Shown here: positions 3,507-14,726 of the stretch, one piece after another
Layout: each line of letters starts with the position of its first letter
Position numbering within the stretch: the first letter of the stretch is position 1
From: a virus
Reading direction: 5' to 3' (one strand)
Virus record (IMG/VR): IMGVR_UViG_3300013120_000738
Span: 1-64,000 of that record
DNA length: 64,000 bases
Made by a program: the position numbers and the translations under genes
Notes under the pieces: model-generated
The model's database searches: none
What the model saw: only the letters and a program-made list of their open reading frames with translations
Told to the model about the DNA's origin: nothing

Positions 3507-3689
3507 ATGCATCTAGAAGTCACACAACCAGATGGGTCCATAGAATATGTGACCCCCACGGACATAGCCCGCGCCAGAATCTTCGCATCTTTCAACGAAG
3601 AACTGGCCTGGCTACTGTCCGCTCTCGATAATTTAACCCCCGGTAAATCCTTGCAACATGGCGGTAGGATTTGGAAACGCGTAAACTAA
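3507..3689 (+). CDS. Hypothetical protein, 60 aa
   Basis: Small protein starting MHLEVTQPDGSIEYV, two bases after the previous stop, so probably co-transcribed with it. No recognisable domain. Its 3' end overlaps the convergent HNH gene by 4 bp. Confidence 0.5.
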   Translation: MHLEVTQPDGSIEYVTPTDIARARIFASFNEELAWLLSALDNLTPGKSLQHGGRIWKRVN

Positions 3690-4168
3690 TTTATTCTAGT
3701 AACAGCTCTACACCTCTCCAAGAACTCTCCATCTGTCAAAGTATTCCTAGCCATATTAACCCACCAACACACAAGCCTAATATTATCCCTACTATAGTCC
3801 TTTAAACAGTTAATACGATCAACCGATATATTAGCATAATGTGAATCAGTAGTCATTGTTAATCCAGTAATTGCACATTTTCCTTCCTGTTCTTGCCATA
3901 ACTCAACTAAATCGTTATAAGTTATTGAACAATTAATGTTCTTACGATGTCTACATTTTTTAATCAACACTTTAAAGCGACCGTGAAGCGTCTGAGCCCA
4001 TTTTTTCTGGATTTCACTTATTTTACCAGCATTCTTTTCACGATATCGTTTAGCCTTGTGTCTTCCTTCTGGGCTATTCCGTTTTCTTCTTTTCTTTTCT
4101 AAGACATCTTCTCGATTTTTGAGATACCATTTTCGCCATCTATCCCTTTTTTTCTGTAGATCTATCAT
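3686..4168 (-). CDS. HNH-type endonuclease-like protein (copy 2 of a tandem pair)
   Basis: About 160 aa. A lysine/arginine-rich N-terminal helical region is followed by a C-terminal core with 'CAITGLTM', 'ISVDRINCLKDY' and 'NIRLVCWWVNMARNTLTD'. These resemble the HNH cores of phage homing-type nucleases, with D-R at the HNH position and an invariant Asn downstream. I chose the ATG at 4168 because GGAGGG precedes it; an in-frame ATG lies at 4183. It overlaps the related upstream gene by 29 bp. Such nucleases commonly cut DNA at intron or intergenic target sites and spread by homing. The core lacks the usual paired CxxC zinc motifs, and activity is not shown. Confidence 0.6.
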   Translation of the reverse strand: MIDLQKKRDRWRKWYLKNREDVLEKKRRKRNSPEGRHKAKRYREKNAGKISEIQKKWAQTLHGRFKVLIKKCRHRKNINCSITYNDLVELWQEQEGKCAITGLTMTTDSHYANISVDRINCLKDYSRDNIRLVCWWVNMARNTLTDGEFLERCRAVTRIN

Positions 4169-4595
4169 CAATACCCTCCACAACTAATTTACACCAATTC
4201 CGGAAATCACTGTCAGTCAACGTATTTCTAGCCATGTTGGCCCATTTACTAACAAATCTAATATTAGATAACTCATAAGGACCATGTGGTCTGATTCTAT
4301 CGATTGTCACAGCATCTGGAGATGGTCCGACATGATTATAAGTCATTGGAAGATTGCTTAAAGCACATCTCCCGCCTTGTTGTTCCCACAACAATTCTAA
4401 ATCTTCAATAGTAATATCAGTCCCGGCTCGTTTTCTAATATCTTTCAAAAGTTTATTAAACCTACCTCTTACTGTTCTACAGTATTCGTAATGCTTCTTT
4501 GCAAGTCTTTCTTTATTTAATTCTCTATACTTTTTATTCCGATCGAGTTCAGATTGTCGATGTTTCCGATAATATTGTCTTTGTTTAGTACCCAT
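4140..4595 (-). CDS. HNH-type endonuclease-like protein (copy 1 of a tandem pair)
   Basis: 151 aa. It shares with its neighbour a basic N-terminus, 'CALSNLPMTYN', 'VTIDRIRPHGPY', 'NIRFVSKWANMARNTLTDSDF' and overall length, so the pair arose by tandem duplication. The conserved D-R and N residues fit an HNH-like fold. The start ATG at 4595 follows AAAGGGC. The tandem pair sits between unrelated small genes, typical of freestanding homing endonucleases in large phages. Confidence 0.6.
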   Translation of the reverse strand: MGTKQRQYYRKHRQSELDRNKKYRELNKERLAKKHYEYCRTVRGRFNKLLKDIRKRAGTDITIEDLELLWEQQGGRCALSNLPMTYNHVGPSPDAVTIDRIRPHGPYELSNIRFVSKWANMARNTLTDSDFRNWCKLVVEGIDDRSTEKKG

Positions 4596-6205: not shown

Positions 6206-6829
6206 TTACAGACTGATCTTCAGCTCATCACCAGGCTGACGTCTGTAAACTACCTCAAGAGCGGCCTTGATATGGGCACGATTAGTACCATCGAAATAGA
6301 GTGCTCTAGGATGCTCAAAATATACATTAAATTCATTCTGAGGTAATATAGCTAGGCCTCGTGGCCTACGTCCCAACCAAGCCTCAACATATGGCGGATG
6401 ATCATCTATAAGGACTTTCCCATAATCTAGACTTTTGGCGACTACATCATCAGTACCAGTAACTACTCTGATTCCTATATCACCGGTCAAGGTTTCAGGA
6501 ATCCTTCTATGGCACCACTGAACTTTCTCTTGCCATGCTAAAGGACACCAAGACGGTCCTTTGGTAAGAATATGAATACTAAATCCTATTTCCTTAAGCA
6601 TTTCCAGCACCATAAATCCAAGATGGAGTGTCTCCAATTCCTCCCACCATCCTGGTGTATTAACAATAGCCTTCCGACGCGCTTCAAGATGTCGTGGTAG
6701 ACTATGAAGATCAGAATGCCGAAGAGTTTCACCAGGACCTGACATAGCCATAAGATCCCGATATAAGGCCTTTTCATAGTCAGCTAAAGTGCCGTCCATA
6801 TCAACTAGTGCTATCTGATTACCGTCCAT
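6206..6829 (-). CDS. HAD-family 5'(3')-deoxyribonucleotidase-like protein
   Basis: 207 aa. The HAD motif I DMDGT is at residues 10-14; motif II is plausible at 'IHILTKGPS' (about 103-111), and the acidic motif 'VLIDDHPPY' lies near residue 145. This layout matches 5'-nucleotidase-C-type deoxyribonucleotidases, which remove phosphate from dNMPs and help tune nucleotide pools in phage infection. Its start overlaps the 3' end of the primase gene by 11 bp, so the two are probably translated together. Substrate is not certain from sequence; another HAD phosphatase role is possible. Confidence 0.6.
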   Translation of the reverse strand: MDGNQIALVDMDGTLADYEKALYRDLMAMSGPGETLRHSDLHSLPRHLEARRKAIVNTPGWWEELETLHLGFMVLEMLKEIGFSIHILTKGPSWCPLAWQEKVQWCHRRIPETLTGDIGIRVVTGTDDVVAKSLDYGKVLIDDHPPYVEAWLGRRPRGLAILPQNEFNVYFEHPRALYFDGTNRAHIKAALEVVYRRQPGDELKISL

Positions 6830-7940
6830 CTCTCTTTTTGGCCTCTTGAACTTCTGATCGGAATCGAACTAAATCATCAACAGTTAGCTTCTTCAACTGT
6901 CTATCGTATAACCGTCTAACCTCGGACAGCGTTAATTTCAATTCAGTAATACATTCGTTCCAGTCCTTTATTACCATGTTCTTCCCGTCCTTCTTATATG
7001 GTATAGAAGGAGGAAGACTAAACCATATTGGAAACCTGAGATTGCGTAGTAATAATTGATTCTCAATAATACTCTTTTTACCAGCTATATCATTATCGGG
7101 CGAGAGTATTATTCTCTCCTTAGGACCTAATAATTTAATCTTTTTGACCTGATTAGGACTTAGTGATGCACCTCCTGAAGCCAGTACTTGCTCTCCCAAT
7201 GTGTTCTGATCAAATATCGATTCGGTAATAATAACATATCTAGCAGGTTCAATATCATCAAAACCATATAAATAATCTGCTCTGCCACCCTCCATCTTCC
7301 CAGTAATATTATCTTCATTATCATATTCATATAAATCCGGGAATTCAAATCTCTTATTAATCCTCGATCGGCTTTGCCAATATACTAAGTCATCGAATTC
7401 ATAGTATGGCCAATAAACATCCATCCCTAAGTAGTATAATTCGTGAGTCTCTATCCCCTCGTCAGTATAACCTCTAGACCGCAACCAACCCTTCAGAATA
7501 TTAGCTTGAGGATCTTCCGCCGACCAAAGTAGCCTCGTGCCCCCAGGAAGGCTTACGGAAACGGTTTTCTTGGCCTCTGAGGCACCGGGCCGGTTTTCGG
7601 GCCTCATGTAAAGAGAAACGCTCCCCGTGTCTCCGAGAACCTCGGAGAGGGCATCCTTCATAGAGCATTTCCGATAGACCCGGACGAATCTGATAAATGA
7701 GCAATTACGCTTACCAGTCCTAGGATTTATTGGACCGGCCCATTCATCCCCATGCCAAGAGTGGCAGACACCTTTATCAGGATTTATTTGGAAGCGGAAT
7801 CTTGTATCGCCGTCGAATGGGTCGCATATTTGATATTCCGCACCACCTTTGCGTACTTTATACTCGAAGTTTCGCTCTACCCAAGCGATAATTCTATTCG
7901 GTGGTATTTTCTTGTAGGCATGGTCAGGCATACATTTCAA
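6819..7940 (-). CDS. DNA primase, DnaG-type with TOPRIM domain
   Basis: 373 aa. The N-terminal part has Cys39, Cys59, His60, His63 and Cys80, a likely zinc-binding region as in DnaG-type primases. A TOPRIM core follows, with the glutamate in 'YVIITESIFDQNTLG' (about 233-247) and the acidic 'IILSPDNDIAGK' (about 282-293). DnaG-type primases make RNA primers for lagging-strand synthesis and work with a DnaB-type helicase, present here at 59827-61164. The gene is far from the other replication genes and directly follows the sensor-holin-receiver cassette. It lacks an obvious helicase-binding C-terminal domain. Confidence 0.75.
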   Translation of the reverse strand: MKCMPDHAYKKIPPNRIIAWVERNFEYKVRKGGAEYQICDPFDGDTRFRFQINPDKGVCHSWHGDEWAGPINPRTGKRNCSFIRFVRVYRKCSMKDALSEVLGDTGSVSLYMRPENRPGASEAKKTVSVSLPGGTRLLWSAEDPQANILKGWLRSRGYTDEGIETHELYYLGMDVYWPYYEFDDLVYWQSRSRINKRFEFPDLYEYDNEDNITGKMEGGRADYLYGFDDIEPARYVIITESIFDQNTLGEQVLASGGASLSPNQVKKIKLLGPKERIILSPDNDIAGKKSIIENQLLLRNLRFPIWFSLPPSIPYKKDGKNMVIKDWNECITELKLTLSEVRRLYDRQLKKLTVDDLVRFRSEVQEAKKRDGR

Positions 7941-7969: not shown

Positions 7970-9715
7970 CTAACGATCAGGAATAGTTCGAACATCTTTA
8001 GTATCTCCATTAGGATCTACAGCAGTTGGTAGGATTTCTACCTCTTCATCTAGTACCACTTGTGCGACATATAAGTTTCTACCATTAATCACTGACATCA
8101 CTCGAATGTTGATGTCAATTTCTTCACCATCCTTGGTGACCATTTTGCCAGAAACTTGTATGATGCCGCCTTTATTTAATTTTTCCAGAAGATCCGGATA
8201 CGTCATTCCTATTTGGTGTCTCTCGAATCTTCCTGGGGGGATTATTAGGTCAAGCTTTCTACCTATAGCTTCACCTTCTGTCCACCCAAGTAATTTTTGA
8301 GCACCATCATTCCACATAGCAATCGTACCATTCTTAGCATCACAAATAATATATGCTGTATCACTCATTTCAATTATTCTACGCCACTGATCTGCTCTCT
8401 TATTAGCCCTGTATATTGTTATGACTTGCCATAGGTCTTCCATCAAGAAAGTAACTTGCAAGACGTCATCTTGCGTATACGGTTTCTTCTTATTCCCAAG
8501 TCCTATAATTAGTCTACATTTCCCTTCAGTAAAAACTGGTACAGACATATATCGGCTCAATACTACTTTATGCTCTGCAGGGTGCTCTGCATTTTCATCC
8601 ATAGGCTTGCCACCAAAGTCATTGTTAACGTATGCCTTTTGTGTTCGAAATGGAATAGCCCATTGTGCTTCCCTTGCGATACCTTCTGCAATATCAAATT
8701 CAGCACGATCATTATGTATCTTATAATCCAACTGCATATTTTCAGACCAAACAGCTACTGTCACCGTATTTTCATCATTTTCATGAACATAGCCTATATA
8801 ACCATACCTACTACCAGTCAAGCGAATACATTCTTCTAGACAAAAATCCTTCAAACTCGCCTCAGTATGTGTACCAACATGGCTGTATAATTTAAGAGAA
8901 GCTTCTAATCTCTCTTGCGTTATACTAATCCTAACATCATTCACTTGTGCCACATGTAAACTATATCCAAGAAATGAAACCAAAAAAGCAATGATAAGAA
9001 TGATTATAGCAGATGATACTTTGCGTAATGTGTTTTCAGGCTTCCGCTTACGCGATTCATGTCTATCGTGGAGCCGCTTAAAAATCGGAGTAAGAGCACG
9101 AATGAACACAACAGAACCAACAAGTATGACCAAAACAGCAAAACTTGAAGCAATAACACCAGCCCTAATAAAAGGACTTCTGATTTCAGCAATATCCATT
9201 TTCGCCACTAATCCAAGATCGCAACAAATCATATCAACGGGTTCATATGCTGCAAGGACATATACACCTCTATAATCGCGACCTACCATGGAACCAGAGT
9301 GACCATTTAGAACCATTTGCATAGGCTCAGCATAATTAGATTTTAAAGCTATGATCTTACGATCTTCTACACCTGTATGGCGATGACTAAGTAGAAATAC
9401 TATATCACTACCTTCTCGTTCTGCTAATGTAAATTCTCCAGTTTTGCCAAAACCATTATATCTCCGATGTGCTTCAGTAATTTGAGTCAATGCTGCTTCA
9501 GATGCTTCATCTTGATCTTCAATTTGACTATGAGAGAATTTAGCTATTGACTCCATTAATCTGGCCTGGCTACGAGAAGTCTCAACTAATCTACGCTCAA
9601 CTTCATGTACTGCAGCATTATACGACAACACTATCGAGACAATACCAATAATCAATGACACACAAGTCATAACTATTAGTAAAAAATAAAATCTTTTACG
9701 ATCATCACGTATCAT
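7970..9715 (-). CDS. Membrane sensor protein: Cache-like, GAF and PAS domains, no kinase
   Basis: About 581 aa from ATG 9715 (an in-frame ATG at 9760 would add 15 residues; the shorter form overlaps the holin gene by 11 bp, and GGAGGAGG lies upstream). Order: membrane helix near the N-terminus; extracytoplasmic Cache-like region ('GKTGEFTLAE', 'NGHSGSMVGRDYRGVYVLAAYEP', 'LGLVAKMDIAEIRSPF'); a second helix; a basic linker; a third helix; a GAF domain ('FCLEECIRLTGSRYGYIGYV', 'RYMSVPVFTEGKCRLIIGLGNK'); and a PAS domain ('IIEMSDTAYIICDAKNG', 'NDGAQKLLGWTEGEAIGRKL'). The arrangement copies the input half of proteobacterial hybrid histidine kinases, but no H-box, ATPase or other output domain follows. 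It lies in a row with a holin-like gene and a membrane-bound receiver gene. The signal it binds is unknown. Confidence 0.75.
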   Translation of the reverse strand: MIRDDRKRFYFLLIVMTCVSLIIGIVSIVLSYNAAVHEVERRLVETSRSQARLMESIAKFSHSQIEDQDEASEAALTQITEAHRRYNGFGKTGEFTLAEREGSDIVFLLSHRHTGVEDRKIIALKSNYAEPMQMVLNGHSGSMVGRDYRGVYVLAAYEPVDMICCDLGLVAKMDIAEIRSPFIRAGVIASSFAVLVILVGSVVFIRALTPIFKRLHDRHESRKRKPENTLRKVSSAIIILIIAFLVSFLGYSLHVAQVNDVRISITQERLEASLKLYSHVGTHTEASLKDFCLEECIRLTGSRYGYIGYVHENDENTVTVAVWSENMQLDYKIHNDRAEFDIAEGIAREAQWAIPFRTQKAYVNNDFGGKPMDENAEHPAEHKVVLSRYMSVPVFTEGKCRLIIGLGNKKKPYTQDDVLQVTFLMEDLWQVITIYRANKRADQWRRIIEMSDTAYIICDAKNGTIAMWNDGAQKLLGWTEGEAIGRKLDLIIPPGRFERHQIGMTYPDLLEKLNKGGIIQVSGKMVTKDGEEIDINIRVMSVINGRNLYVAQVVLDEEVEILPTAVDPNGDTKDVRTIPDR

Positions 9716-10055
9716 CGTTTGGCTCATCATCCTCCTCCGACTCATCAGGAACCGGTTCAATATGGAGATTTATCTTCCCCTGAAAGAAAATCTTCATTAA
9801 ATCAAGTGCCGTTGCCCCACCTATTCCAGCTAGCCCACTCACGGCTAACAAAAATGGTATATTTCCTTTGCCTTCAAAGTAATTATACCACATTAAAGCA
9901 ACAATTAATCCAATGATTCCACTATATAAGATAGACGATAAGACGGATCTGAGATTCAGATCTTCTTTACCTCTCAGTAAAGCTGCTAGTCCTCCAAGAG
10001 CTGCGACGCCGAAGGCCGACATGAAGACTAGTATATGAGTAAGAGTCCACACCAT
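9705..10055 (-). CDS. Holin-like small membrane protein
   Basis: 116 aa with three predicted membrane helices (about 5-27, 38-58 and 67-88) and a short, very acidic C-terminal tail (DESEEDDEPNDD). Size, helix count and charged tail fit a phage holin, which opens the inner membrane at a set time to let lysis proceed. 'LSSILYSGIIGLIVALMWYNYF' style segments resemble phage holin family members. It overlaps the sensor gene downstream and follows the receiver-domain gene. No endolysin lies next to it, so the holin call rests on topology and size. A 16-nt tandem repeat covers its start codon. Confidence 0.55.
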   Translation of the reverse strand: MVWTLTHILVFMSAFGVAALGGLAALLRGKEDLNLRSVLSSILYSGIIGLIVALMWYNYFEGKGNIPFLLAVSGLAGIGGATALDLMKIFFQGKINLHIEPVPDESEEDDEPNDDT

Positions 10056-10084
10056 AAGTTAACCCAGTCATAAGTTAACCCAGT
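10053..10084. repeat. 16-bp tandem repeat spanning the holin start codon
   Basis: The unit CATAAGTTAACCCAGT occurs twice in a row (10053-10068, 10069-10084), followed by a partial CATAAA. On the coding strand it gives CTGGGTTAACTTATG twice, so a second ATG lies 16 nt upstream in another frame. No usual ribosome site precedes the holin ATG. Confidence 0.9.
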
Positions 10085-10090
10085 CATAAA

Positions 10091-10582
10091 TTATCCTACA
10101 CAAGCATGAAGGCACAAACCATACACGAAAAGCCCAAACAAACTAAGTATGATACACCAAAAGAACACACACCTCCAAAACCTAATTTTCCTCTCCTTCA
10201 GCAACAGATAAGCTTGAACAATAAGGGCATTTCCTATAAATTGCATATTCCCTTGACCCTTCCATAGGTATGTCAATGCTCCTGCATTATTAGCTTCCAG
10301 AATTAACTCAAGCTCTTCACTACCTGAAAAGACGACAACAGGGGGACTTTTATGTCGTCTATATCTAATATATTCAATAGTTTGTTTAGGTGTTGAATCT
10401 GGCAGATTCAGATCTAACAAAATCAAATCTGCATGTCTTTCACGTCCATGTGCATCATGTAGAGTACTAACAACCTCCAATGATATCAACTTATTCTTAT
10501 CATTGTGTTCTAATACTCGCTGCATTAGAGCGATATCGACTTGTAAGTCCTCGACCCACAATATCTTCATCGATTTCATCAT
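10091..10582 (-). CDS. Response-regulator receiver domain with C-terminal membrane anchor
   Basis: 163 aa. Residues 5-120 form a CheY-like receiver: acidic pair E11/D12, phosphoacceptor D57 in 'LLDLNLPDS', the Ser at 86 in 'VVVFSGS', and Lys108 in 'LWKGQG'. All catalytic positions are present, so it should be able to accept phosphate. Instead of a DNA-binding output domain, residues about 139-160 form one hydrophobic helix (FFWCIILSLFGLFVYG). Membrane-tethered single receivers are rare. It sits directly upstream of the holin-like gene, 35 bp away, with the sensor after that. A role in controlling the holin or in drawing phosphate from a host kinase is inference. Confidence 0.8.
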   Translation of the reverse strand: MMKSMKILWVEDLQVDIALMQRVLEHNDKNKLISLEVVSTLHDAHGRERHADLILLDLNLPDSTPKQTIEYIRYRRHKSPPVVVFSGSEELELILEANNAGALTYLWKGQGNMQFIGNALIVQAYLLLKERKIRFWRCVFFWCIILSLFGLFVYGLCLHACVG

Positions 10583-10607: not shown

Positions 10608-11483
10608 TCATGATATCGTAAGAACAAATTTCCTGCTCACCCTAGTCGAACCATTCGGCAGCGTCAAAGTGATGTAATACCTATATGTCCCCTTTAAAAA
10701 ACGAGACGTGTTGAGATCATACTGGACTACCCACGGATTTGACCTATACGATCCTTGTCTGATACCAATCCTACATGCCTCAGCATCGGCAAGCAATTCA
10801 TTGTGCTGAGTTTCTATCGTGATAGTCGGCTGCAAAAATGGAATGATAGGATTAACAAGATTGAAATTATAATCATACAAAGGCAAAGGCATAAGCCCAA
10901 CCTCAAGAGGCCTCGCCTCAGGTGTATGAAATTTCTGATCTAGTGGTTCAAAACCAAACCGAATAGTCTGTAACCGATCGTCGCAAAACCATTCTTCTGG
11001 ATAAACCCAAAACCGATGACAACACCTTAATAACAATGGGTCATAGGTGTCCTCATCCATATCACAATCTGTAGCATCCGTACCTAACGCTCCACAAGGA
11101 TTATCGGCGAAATAGTACCAAACATCAAAATAGACATCAGGTACTTCAAAGTCCTCTGAAATAGCATAGGGAAGGTGATATCTGCCAGCTACCGGTGTAT
11201 CATCCTCTGATGGCTCTGTGCAGCAGTCGCCAGCTTCAGAAGCTATCTCATGGCGACAAATTGGAGATGGGTATAGAGGATCATCGAGATCAACAACAGG
11301 CACAGTAGCCACCAAATTATGTGGAACCACCGATGACTTATAGATCTCAATTTGCCTGATAGCGTATGGATCAGTTAATACCCCATTCTTTCGGAAATCC
11401 ACGTTTAGATCAACCACACTGCCTCTTCTGGCAGAGATTCGTGGATACGCACCAGTAAGCTGTGCACATGTCATACCACACAC
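10608..11483 (-). CDS. Hypothetical virion-associated protein, 291 aa
   Basis: Cys-rich in the middle ('GDCCTEPSEDD', 'CGALGTDATDCD', 'LRCCHRFWVYPEEWFC'), with beta-rich N- and C-terminal parts; the end 'LTLPNGSTRVSRKFVLTIS' looks like an Ig-like strand pair. No family recognised. It lies just downstream of the baseplate gene cluster on the same strand, so a minor tail or baseplate component is plausible. Confidence 0.5.
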   Translation of the reverse strand: MCGMTCAQLTGAYPRISARRGSVVDLNVDFRKNGVLTDPYAIRQIEIYKSSVVPHNLVATVPVVDLDDPLYPSPICRHEIASEAGDCCTEPSEDDTPVAGRYHLPYAISEDFEVPDVYFDVWYYFADNPCGALGTDATDCDMDEDTYDPLLLRCCHRFWVYPEEWFCDDRLQTIRFGFEPLDQKFHTPEARPLEVGLMPLPLYDYNFNLVNPIIPFLQPTITIETQHNELLADAEACRIGIRQGSYRSNPWVVQYDLNTSRFLKGTYRYYITLTLPNGSTRVSRKFVLTIS

Positions 11484-12925: not shown

Positions 12926-13486
12926 CTATTCAGGCGGTAATTCTTCCGCCCAATCATATGCTACAGTGACTTCTACAGTTTTGACGTCACTATTAGTATA
13001 GGTCATTTCTCCATGTCGTATAACTTTTGGCCAACTACCATTTAGTAGCCATCCCTGTACTGATTTACCAGTCGGGAGGAAAGTCTCTAGATGTGATTGT
13101 TTCTTATATTCACTAGCAACTTTCAGGCCTTTCATAGATGTCCATATAGTCTCGCGCCATTCCTTTAAGTATTGTAACATTCCTACTGTATCATACCATG
13201 TTACTTTAATATCATCCCATGTAACACTCTTTGCCCATTTATATTCTAGGCTCGCCCCAAGAACCGTTTCTTGGTTGACAGTAAATGTAGGAAGTGTCAT
13301 ATCCTTAAGATGGATAAGAGCACTTCTAGCTCCAGGTGGGCTTTCTAATGTGTCTTCAAAGATTTTGAAGATTTCCCACATATAAATATAGTAGTATTCT
13401 GACTCAGAAGGTACGTGCTTCGAACTATCGGGCACTGTCATGCCACCAACAGGATCAGCAAAGCCTTGTACAGCAAATCCTGGCAT
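12926..13486 (-). CDS. Tail tube-like protein, copy 3
   Basis: 186 aa, starting MPGFAVQGF. Shared with the next two genes: the MPGF start, a 'YxWEIF' strand, 'ITWYD'-like strand ('IKVTWYD') and a C-terminal 'W-P' then 'YTNSDVKTVEVTVAYDWA'. This is the gp19-type tube fold, in which subunits stack in rings inside the sheath. It follows copy 2 by one base. This copy is the most divergent and may form an initiator or terminator ring instead of the main tube (inference). Confidence 0.65.
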   Translation of the reverse strand: MPGFAVQGFADPVGGMTVPDSSKHVPSESEYYYIYMWEIFKIFEDTLESPPGARSALIHLKDMTLPTFTVNQETVLGASLEYKWAKSVTWDDIKVTWYDTVGMLQYLKEWRETIWTSMKGLKVASEYKKQSHLETFLPTGKSVQGWLLNGSWPKVIRHGEMTYTNSDVKTVEVTVAYDWAEELPPE

Positions 13487-13487
13487 A

Positions 13488-14096
13488 TTATCCCTCCCTC
13501 TCCCTTGCCTTATTGAAGCGGAGAGTAACTGTTATATCTGCTATATCTGTATCAGCATAGGATAAATCTGATGGGGTCACTTTAGATGGCCAACAATCCA
13601 TCAATTCATATTGCCATATATATTTTGCTTCACCATCAAGCATTGCTAATTTGCATAATCTATAATAGTCTTTTGGTACATTATGCGTGCTAGTCCTAAG
13701 GTCAAGAATTGATTTACTATTTCTAGGATCTCCAGCCCACCAGTCATATATCAACATTGCTGGACTATCTTCACCAGCGCTGTTTACAACCTCATAGAAT
13801 GAGACTTCTACAGGTTTCCATCTATTTTTACCGGGTCTATAAATTTCATCTTGAGCACTATGTATAGTTATTTCATCGAATTCTGGGGTGGGTCTACTGC
13901 ATTTATACGCATAGACCAGCAATGATTGCCAGTCTAATGATGAACCACCAAGAGATTGAGCTGCAAATATTTCCCAAATATATCTATGTTTTCTAGCGGA
14001 TTCTGTTATATAGGAAGGAGGGTCGTACGGGGGTTTGCCCTCTAAGCCCGGTGGGGCACAGTCTGAGTCAGGTGCTGGTATATTAAAGCCTGGCAT
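13488..14096 (-). CDS. Tail tube-like protein, copy 2
   Basis: About 202 aa from MPGFNIPAP at 14096; an upstream in-frame ATG at 14114 would add six residues, but the shared MPGF start favours 14096. It has 'KHRYIWEIFAAQ', 'VEVSFYEVVN', 'LMDCWPSKVTPSDLSYADTD' and 'DITVTLRFNKA', matching the tube pattern of its neighbours. It is a paralog of the genes on either side and likely part of the tail tube or a modified ring. Confidence 0.65.
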   Translation of the reverse strand: MPGFNIPAPDSDCAPPGLEGKPPYDPPSYITESARKHRYIWEIFAAQSLGGSSLDWQSLLVYAYKCSRPTPEFDEITIHSAQDEIYRPGKNRWKPVEVSFYEVVNSAGEDSPAMLIYDWWAGDPRNSKSILDLRTSTHNVPKDYYRLCKLAMLDGEAKYIWQYELMDCWPSKVTPSDLSYADTDIADITVTLRFNKAREREG

Positions 14097-14123
14097 ATCA
14101 TATGTACAACCCAAACACCTGCA

Positions 14124-14726
14124 CTACATTCCAGGCGGGCATGCAGGAGTAACCGGCTCGTTAGTAGCACTGTTCTGGCAGCTACGAATCGCACGATCGT
14201 ACCGCATCGTCGCTTCGATGGTCATCAGATCGGTTGAGGTGTAATCAAGCTCTTGCCAATTGATTTCAGCTGGCCATGTACCATATAGCTCCCATCTCTC
14301 AGAGACAGCAGTAGCACCCATTCCGCCCACTAAGGCCATACCGCCGACCATAGCAAGCTGGGCAAACTTCTTATACTTTTCAGGATGTGCCACCTGAATA
14401 GTCGTCATATTTACTACTGTTTCCAGCCAGTAATAAATATCCGCAGATATATCGGGTTTCTGTTCCCCATCATACCATACCAGAGTAATCGGGTCCCAGT
14501 CTTGCTTACCAGCAAAACGGACCACTTCCTGATTATGGTGCATTTCAGGCTGTTCGAACTTGAAGCTAGGTCTTGAGGCAGACTGCAGCATCAGTCGAGA
14601 TATGGTGGAAAATGGCGTACCTTCACCACGTAGAATAACCTCGAAAACCCACCGATGCTTACGGCGGACTTCCATGGTGTTGGGCACTCCGCCACCGCCA
14701 ATGCCATTCACATTGAAACCAGGCAT
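14124..14726 (-). CDS. Tail tube protein (gp19-like), copy 1
   Basis: 200 aa. 'RRKHRWVFEVILRG', 'FEQPEMHHNQEVVRFAGKQ', 'ITLVWYDGEQKPDIS' and 'LYGTWPAEINWQELDYTSTD' follow the gp19 tube family pattern closely. It comes immediately after the sheath gene, the normal T4 order 18 then 19, so it is the best candidate for the major tube subunit. ATG 14726 is 10 bp after the sheath stop and follows an AAGGAG ribosome site. Confidence 0.75.
   Translation of the reverse strand: MPGFNVNGIGGGGVPNTMEVRRKHRWVFEVILRGEGTPFSTISRLMLQSASRPSFKFEQPEMHHNQEVVRFAGKQDWDPITLVWYDGEQKPDISADIYYWLETVVNMTTIQVAHPEKYKKFAQLAMVGGMALVGGMGATAVSERWELYGTWPAEINWQELDYTSTDLMTIEATMRYDRAIRSCQNSATNEPVTPACPPGM

Follow-up and report, generated by a model that had tools for sequence, protein, structure and literature searches.

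Receiver, holin-like and sensor genes in a variable slot of a phage tail-gene region: a possible variant of a recurrent sensor and membrane-protein module

Three membrane-protein genes between a presumed structural gene and a primase gene

The DNA analysed here (the window) is a stretch of 64,000 nucleotides that forms the first part of a virus record of 227,725 bases (IMG/VR record IMGVR_UViG_3300013120_000738); its minus strand carries genes for a T4-like sheath, tube and baseplate. Within this tail-gene region there is a slot bordered upstream by the gene for a 291-amino-acid (aa) presumed structural protein with no Pfam or PHROG name (10608-11483, minus strand) and downstream by a DNA primase gene (6819-7940, minus strand; PHROG DNA primase, 2e-26). 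The slot is occupied by three minus-strand genes encoding a membrane-anchored receiver (REC-TM; 10091-10582), a holin-like protein (9705-10055) and a membrane sensor (7970-9715, with a possible start at 9727). The initial annotation had placed three open reading frames here and described their products as membrane proteins. Both points are borne out, with one, three and three transmembrane (TM) segments predicted, respectively. The sensor and receiver genes are AT-richer than most of their neighbours (38% G+C compared with 43% for the genome).

Elsewhere in the window, the interval from the cassette block to the tape measure gene encodes two adjacent HNH-like proteins with approximately 35% mutual identity (3686-4595), and three consecutive tail-tube-like paralogues, a triplet kept in several relatives, follow the sheath (12926-14726). 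In SP-15 and LIS04, which have the closest sheath by sequence, the hub region leads directly to the tape measure gene.

REC-TM (163 aa) is composed of a canonical CheY-like receiver and a single C-terminal TM segment serving as a tail anchor (residues 139-157; N-in as judged by charge). It scores above the cutoff of the Pfam Response_reg profile (PF00072; E = 6e-11, 42.9 bits compared with 30.2). Sequence and alignment show that all the phosphorylation residues are present (the acidic pair E11/D12, D57, S86 and K108), and the protein also matches the LuxO and KdpE receivers in the PDB, with D57 and K108 aligned. By profile and by conserved residues it is a response regulator receiver and, in a profile search, the only one in this genome. 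No recognised histidine kinase was found in the phage genome by profile search and the locus does not, therefore, qualify as a two-component system. The sole HATPase_c match, a 538-aa protein (L011:697-2313, equivalent to G000:184697-186313), was considered and rejected. It scores below the cutoff (19.9 bits) and combines an N-terminal GHKL-type ATPase match with a C-terminal HExxH zincin-like motif (AAHEFVHGLG); it is not a histidine kinase. AlphaFold2 without an alignment returned a pLDDT of 52 for REC and 39 for the sensor.

The gap between the receiver and holin-like genes includes a perfect 16-bp tandem duplication (TTATGACTGGGTTAAC, two copies; 10058-10089, minus strand) located directly before the start codon of the holin-like gene. 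The duplication results in three ATGs that stand close together, each in another frame.

The holin-like protein (116 aa) has three TM segments and an acidic cytoplasmic tail, and its charge distribution predicts an N-out/C-in, class-I-like topology. It has matches in two holin families of PHROG (E = 2.5e-6 and 7.7e-6) and is the only protein in the genome to match Pfam Phage_holin_3_3 (PF16083; E = 5e-5), at 23.7 bits, below the curated cutoff of 28.4. Its size, number of TM segments and orientation are those of holin superfamily III, which includes LydA (approximately 100 aa, two to three TM segments, N-out/C-in); its profile score falls short of that required for membership. A forced alignment with LydA of phage P1 gives 20% identity, and pairwise BLAST between the two gives no match. 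The protein is probably, then, a remote relative of LydA and of holin superfamily III. No endolysin was found in the phage genome using the GH24, M15_4 and SLT models (three models, which are not exhaustive). The neighbours of the cassette are the 291-aa protein and the primase and, with no adjacent endolysin, this is not a canonical lysis cassette.

The sensor is organised as a TM segment, a Cache-like extracytoplasmic region, a second TM segment, a basic loop, a third TM segment, a GAF domain and a PAS domain. In its 581-aa form, the TM segments occupy residues 12-30, 187-205 and 233-251, and approximately 155 aa separate the first two. The sensor had been described as a Cache-GAF-PAS protein. 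The last two domains are recovered (Pfam GAF_2, 4e-12, and PAS, 3.5e-9; TIGR00229 sensory box, 5.6e-12), but Cache has no Pfam match, and this label derives from position and from a short match to a Cache-like protein of another phage (pairwise E = 7e-4). No output domain (HisKA/HATPase, MCP or GGDEF) was found in the 581 aa, and the protein is thus not recognisable as a kinase or chemoreceptor. As FixL is the best PDB match, a heme-PAS reading was considered but abandoned: visual inspection shows KGGIIQVSG where the proximal histidine would be.

The topology of the sensor can be read in two ways. The positive-inside rule places both the N-terminus and the loop at 206-232 in the cytoplasm and, since a third TM segment follows, simple counting would locate GAF-PAS on the extracytoplasmic side. 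Either GAF-PAS truly lies outside the cytoplasm or one predicted TM segment is wrong. In the former case these domains would be away from the receiver, and an extracytoplasmic contact of the T4 RI type would be possible.

As initially proposed, the holin-like and sensor reading frames overlap; the extent depends on the sensor start. A Shine-Dalgarno sequence, GGAGGAGG (9731-9738, minus strand), is located within the codons for the acidic C-terminal tail of the holin-like gene. It fits the ATG at 9727 better than that at 9715, and the overlap is consequently given as 11-23 nt. Translational coupling of the sensor to the holin-like gene is likely from this arrangement.

Occupancy of the slot in related phages

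A search of IMG/VR and GenBank phages with each of the three proteins gave a single match, contig 3300009127_000001, which is 99.99% identical at the DNA level. No relatives were found by tblastn with the three proteins among the other loci of a set of 183, and the REC and PF16083 profiles, run across 36 genomes, gave no match outside the window's own genome. The trio is intact, but in these searches it has no relatives beyond that contig. The initial annotation had named a lack of conserved linkage in related phages as grounds for refutation; such a lack is seen here for receiver and holin, but not for a sensor together with a membrane protein (see below).

Since direct searches returned the near-identical contig alone, the flanking genes were used to test synteny. 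Relatives were gathered from IMG/VR with profiles of the sheath, the 291-aa protein and the primase. Homologues of the 291-aa protein (approximately 41-79% identical) occur in 65 distinct relatives, among which the primase is 40-61% identical. In 16 distinct lineages, including the closest, the 291-aa protein is followed by a slot with a PAS gene (L021, L101, L102/L103, L104, L105, L106, L107, L110, L112, L113, L114/L115, L121, L124, L125, L131 and L189). In 22 relatives no gene occupies the slot, and in others it contains tail-fibre-like genes, a 113-aa orphan, HNH or other genes. A PAS profile run across the 36 genomes identified eight with one match each: the window's own (in the sensor, the only PAS match of that genome), six relatives with the match in their slot and one genome with it at another site.

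In a tree of the 291-aa protein, the window adjoins L101 (support 85/77), whose slot begins with a PAS gene. The simplest reading is that the window phage exchanged, in place, a PAS and coiled-coil pair (see below) for the REC-TM, holin-like and sensor genes; as tree support is moderate, we infer this replacement rather than observe it. The trio would then be a non-homologous variant of a recurrent module consisting of a sensor and a small membrane protein. The module is accessory: the empty slots imply that it is dispensable for lysis and, being so numerous, that it tunes a process rather than performing it.

The PAS and coiled-coil pair in relatives and in other phages

The slot PAS protein of the relatives is soluble and approximately 140-190 aa long. 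We aligned those of 14 of the 16 lineages with the window's own PAS domain (alignment A5, 15 rows); Pfam PAS_3 and PAS are matched by 14 of these rows. For L101 and L110, the PAS frame was identified by visual inspection. In each of the 14 lineages in which the contig continues, the PAS gene is followed, in the same order, by a gene for a coiled-coil membrane protein of 120-160 aa that is anchored by a C-terminal TM segment and bears the signature W.EY[KR][RK]LVL.ELER (for example, L104:9739-10657 and L121:10816-11752, with 12 further loci). The two frames overlap by 11-38 nt in nine of 11 measured pairs, although these values assume the first possible start and the overlaps may be shorter. 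Both genes have a pN/pS of 0.16-0.35 with synonymous sites near saturation and, on these values, look to be under purifying selection.

The coiled-coil protein shows weak matches to PHROG 'hemolysin' (XhlA-type) families (phrog_1193, 4e-5; phrog_937, 3e-3) and, in another phage, to a PHROG holin (1.7e-3). None was found when it was sought in bacterial genomes. Neither this family nor the soluble PAS gene is present in the window's genome, which does not, therefore, carry the PAS and coiled-coil module itself. As the coiled-coil protein is unrelated in sequence to the holin-like protein, a shared role is argued from position only.

A further weak match, to SLATT (6.5e-5; its 22.8 bits fall well short of the cutoff of 55), bears on a possible function in superinfection exclusion or as an abortive effector. 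Here, the sensor would register membrane stress or a further infection, and the membrane protein would depolarise or block the membrane. A small TM effector together with a sensor is a common defence layout, and the variable occupancy of the slot would fit competition between phages. The genes are, however, located in the structural cluster, and the PADLOC defence models gave no match for the sensor, holin-like or PAS proteins, a value of 0.02 for REC and otherwise nothing beyond coiled-coil noise. We consider this explanation quite improbable.

To look outside this phage family, IMG/VR was scanned for the coiled-coil signature. A PAS gene paired with one for a small membrane protein was found in at least three unrelated phage groups. 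The coiled-coil protein is directly preceded by PAS in L235, L236/L237, L248 and L249, and by a weak PAS_4 match (3e-4) in L239/L240; in L248 and L249 there are two PAS genes in tandem. In L252, L262, L265 and L267 (L267 shares its coiled-coil protein with L285), the upstream PAS-like protein, approximately 174 aa long, begins with a hydrophobic segment. The PAS assignments of the L235 and L252 groups were made by eye. Many podovirus-like contigs encode a 68-77-aa form without PAS, with head or tail genes around it (phrog_1103, function unknown). Outside the slot, which is empty in this 408-kb relative, G010 has, surrounded by tail-fibre-like genes, a gene for a kinase-less TM-Cache-TM-PAS protein and, next to it, one for a coiled-coil protein of 91 aa (L211:1360-2283).

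In two of these loci (L248:1567-3301 and L249:5141-6879), the coiled-coil gene is followed by genes for small TM proteins and for a proline-rich lipoprotein of the o-spanin type, which reaches only 0.07 against PHROG spanin. These may be PAS-bearing lysis cassettes, for which database support is weak.

This distribution also bears on whether the slot is simply a permissive gap into which unrelated bacterial sensory genes have repeatedly been acquired with no shared function. Its diverse other contents, or lack of any, and the low G+C content of the sensor and receiver genes agree with such an origin. On the other hand, the slot PAS gene always precedes one membrane-protein family in fixed order, their frames overlap in most cases, selection on both appears purifying, and unrelated phages carry the pair too. 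For the PAS pair, passing cargo is already disfavoured, and overall we judge it slightly less probable even than exclusion. The initial annotation had presented the locus as one cassette. This is supported for a unit of sensory gene and membrane protein, seen in the 16 lineages and in unrelated phages, but not for the specific trio.

Possible mechanism and comparison with known systems

The reading that we prefer, with confidence a little short of even, is that the cassette is a variant of this recurrent accessory module, here controlling lysis through a holin-like effector. What the variants have in common is a sensory domain that lacks an output and would be linked, through overlapping genes, with a small membrane protein of the late (structural) gene cluster; the effector of the window phage would most likely be the LydA-type holin-like protein. 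Since the sensor gene occupies the place of lydB in the P1 layout (see below), an antiholin-like role is proposed for it, and it could act as a ligand-controlled antiholin. The tail-anchored receiver might provide a second input, touching the holin or the sensor in the membrane and changing state once a host kinase or acetyl phosphate has phosphorylated it. Depending on the state of the host, the sensor and receiver would jointly hold back or set off permeabilisation of the membrane.

Control of lysis is the best reading, if unproven, of the holin profile matches, the class-I-like topology, the overlap with the sensor Shine-Dalgarno inside the holin-like gene, the same-slot pair in 16 lineages, the weak hemolysin and holin matches and the neighbours of the pair in L248 and L249. 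Set against it are the lack of an adjacent endolysin and of a kinase, the remoteness of the holin match, the singleton trio, the empty slots, the extracytoplasmic GAF-PAS given by the TM count and the PAS-less coiled-coil gene, which is not obviously in lysis cassettes.

Some of the same observations could reflect signal interception. PAS, Cache-GAF-PAS and REC-TM would then act at the membrane as decoys or adaptors and subvert sensory pathways of the host (kinase clusters, chemosensory or redox signalling), with the small membrane proteins as anchors or scaffolds rather than pores. The signalling parts are all devoid of output and kinase domains, as expected of decoys, and the receiver retains every phosphorylation residue; the coiled-coil tail anchor of the relatives could be a scaffold, and one unrelated group anchors PAS itself by an N-terminal TM segment. 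Interception leaves unexplained the holin-family protein in the window and the weak matches that link the coiled-coil protein to XhlA and holin types, and we regard it as rather unlikely.

Returning to control of lysis, phages are thought to time this event by holin accumulation and dedicated antiholins. The present findings suggest, without proving it, that in some phages sensors of bacterial type determine the moment of action on the cell membrane. A wider proposal, which we hold to be doubtful, is that several unrelated tailed-phage lineages own post-translational controllers of lysis or membrane damage, in which PAS, Cache-GAF-PAS and REC proteins, devoid of kinase and DNA-binding outputs, directly gate a small membrane protein. 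The window phage would have a three-part version, with a phosphorylatable receiver and a membrane sensor both acting on a holin. If this were true, phages would read the state of the host or environment (redox, ligand, energy, phosphorylation) and pass the signal straight to the membrane. The gene set is compact and testable (two to three small proteins), and the conserved slot offers a means of finding more variants. In the open-access literature searched, nothing relevant was found linking PAS with phage lysis, and a recurrent module of sensor and membrane protein is not described there.

The closest layout is that of P1 (lydC-lydA-lydB), in which lydA and lydB share 4 nt, the endolysin gene lies elsewhere and LydB is annotated as an antagonist of LydA; a second putative holin, LydD, adjoins the endolysin. 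In our hydropathy test, LydA has two TM segments and LydB an N-terminal one. P1 and the window thus share a LydA-type holin, an overlapping gene for a membrane-anchored regulator, another small membrane protein upstream and an endolysin elsewhere. They differ in that LydC is holin-like rather than a receiver, and the similarity to LydA is remote. To our knowledge, LydB has no recognised sensory domain. XhlA and the PHROG 'hemolysin' proteins share a fold type with the coiled-coil protein of the relatives (the matches are weak), and we know of no PAS linkage for them.

T4 resembles the window in concept, as a pair of sensor and holin with no homology found; we are aware of no Cache, GAF, PAS or REC domain in RI. 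This protein is a periplasmic superinfection sensor that binds holin T and delays lysis (PMC8385771). The statement in the initial annotation that phage lysis timing does not use two-component parts needs a caveat, since timing of lysis by the CtrA phosphorelay has been put forward for phages of alphaproteobacteria (lytic deferment; PMC9437464). CtrA is a host-encoded regulator acting at the level of transcription on phage promoters, with no phage sensor or receiver. For the window phage, we infer both lysis timing and control by phosphorylation. In Gram-positive bacteria, a membrane sensor and a receiver (LytST, or LytSR) control holin-like proteins (lrgAB/cidAB; PMC3507848); this system differs in being bacterial, in having a kinase and in acting transcriptionally. 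Finally, a divergent Rec domain of jumbo phages has been linked to NAD/ADP-ribose enzymes (PMC7824862). Both cases involve a receiver fold in large phages without two-component partners, but the jumbo-phage domain is divergent and lies beside NAD enzymes, whereas the window receiver is canonical, membrane anchored and encoded beside a holin-like gene.
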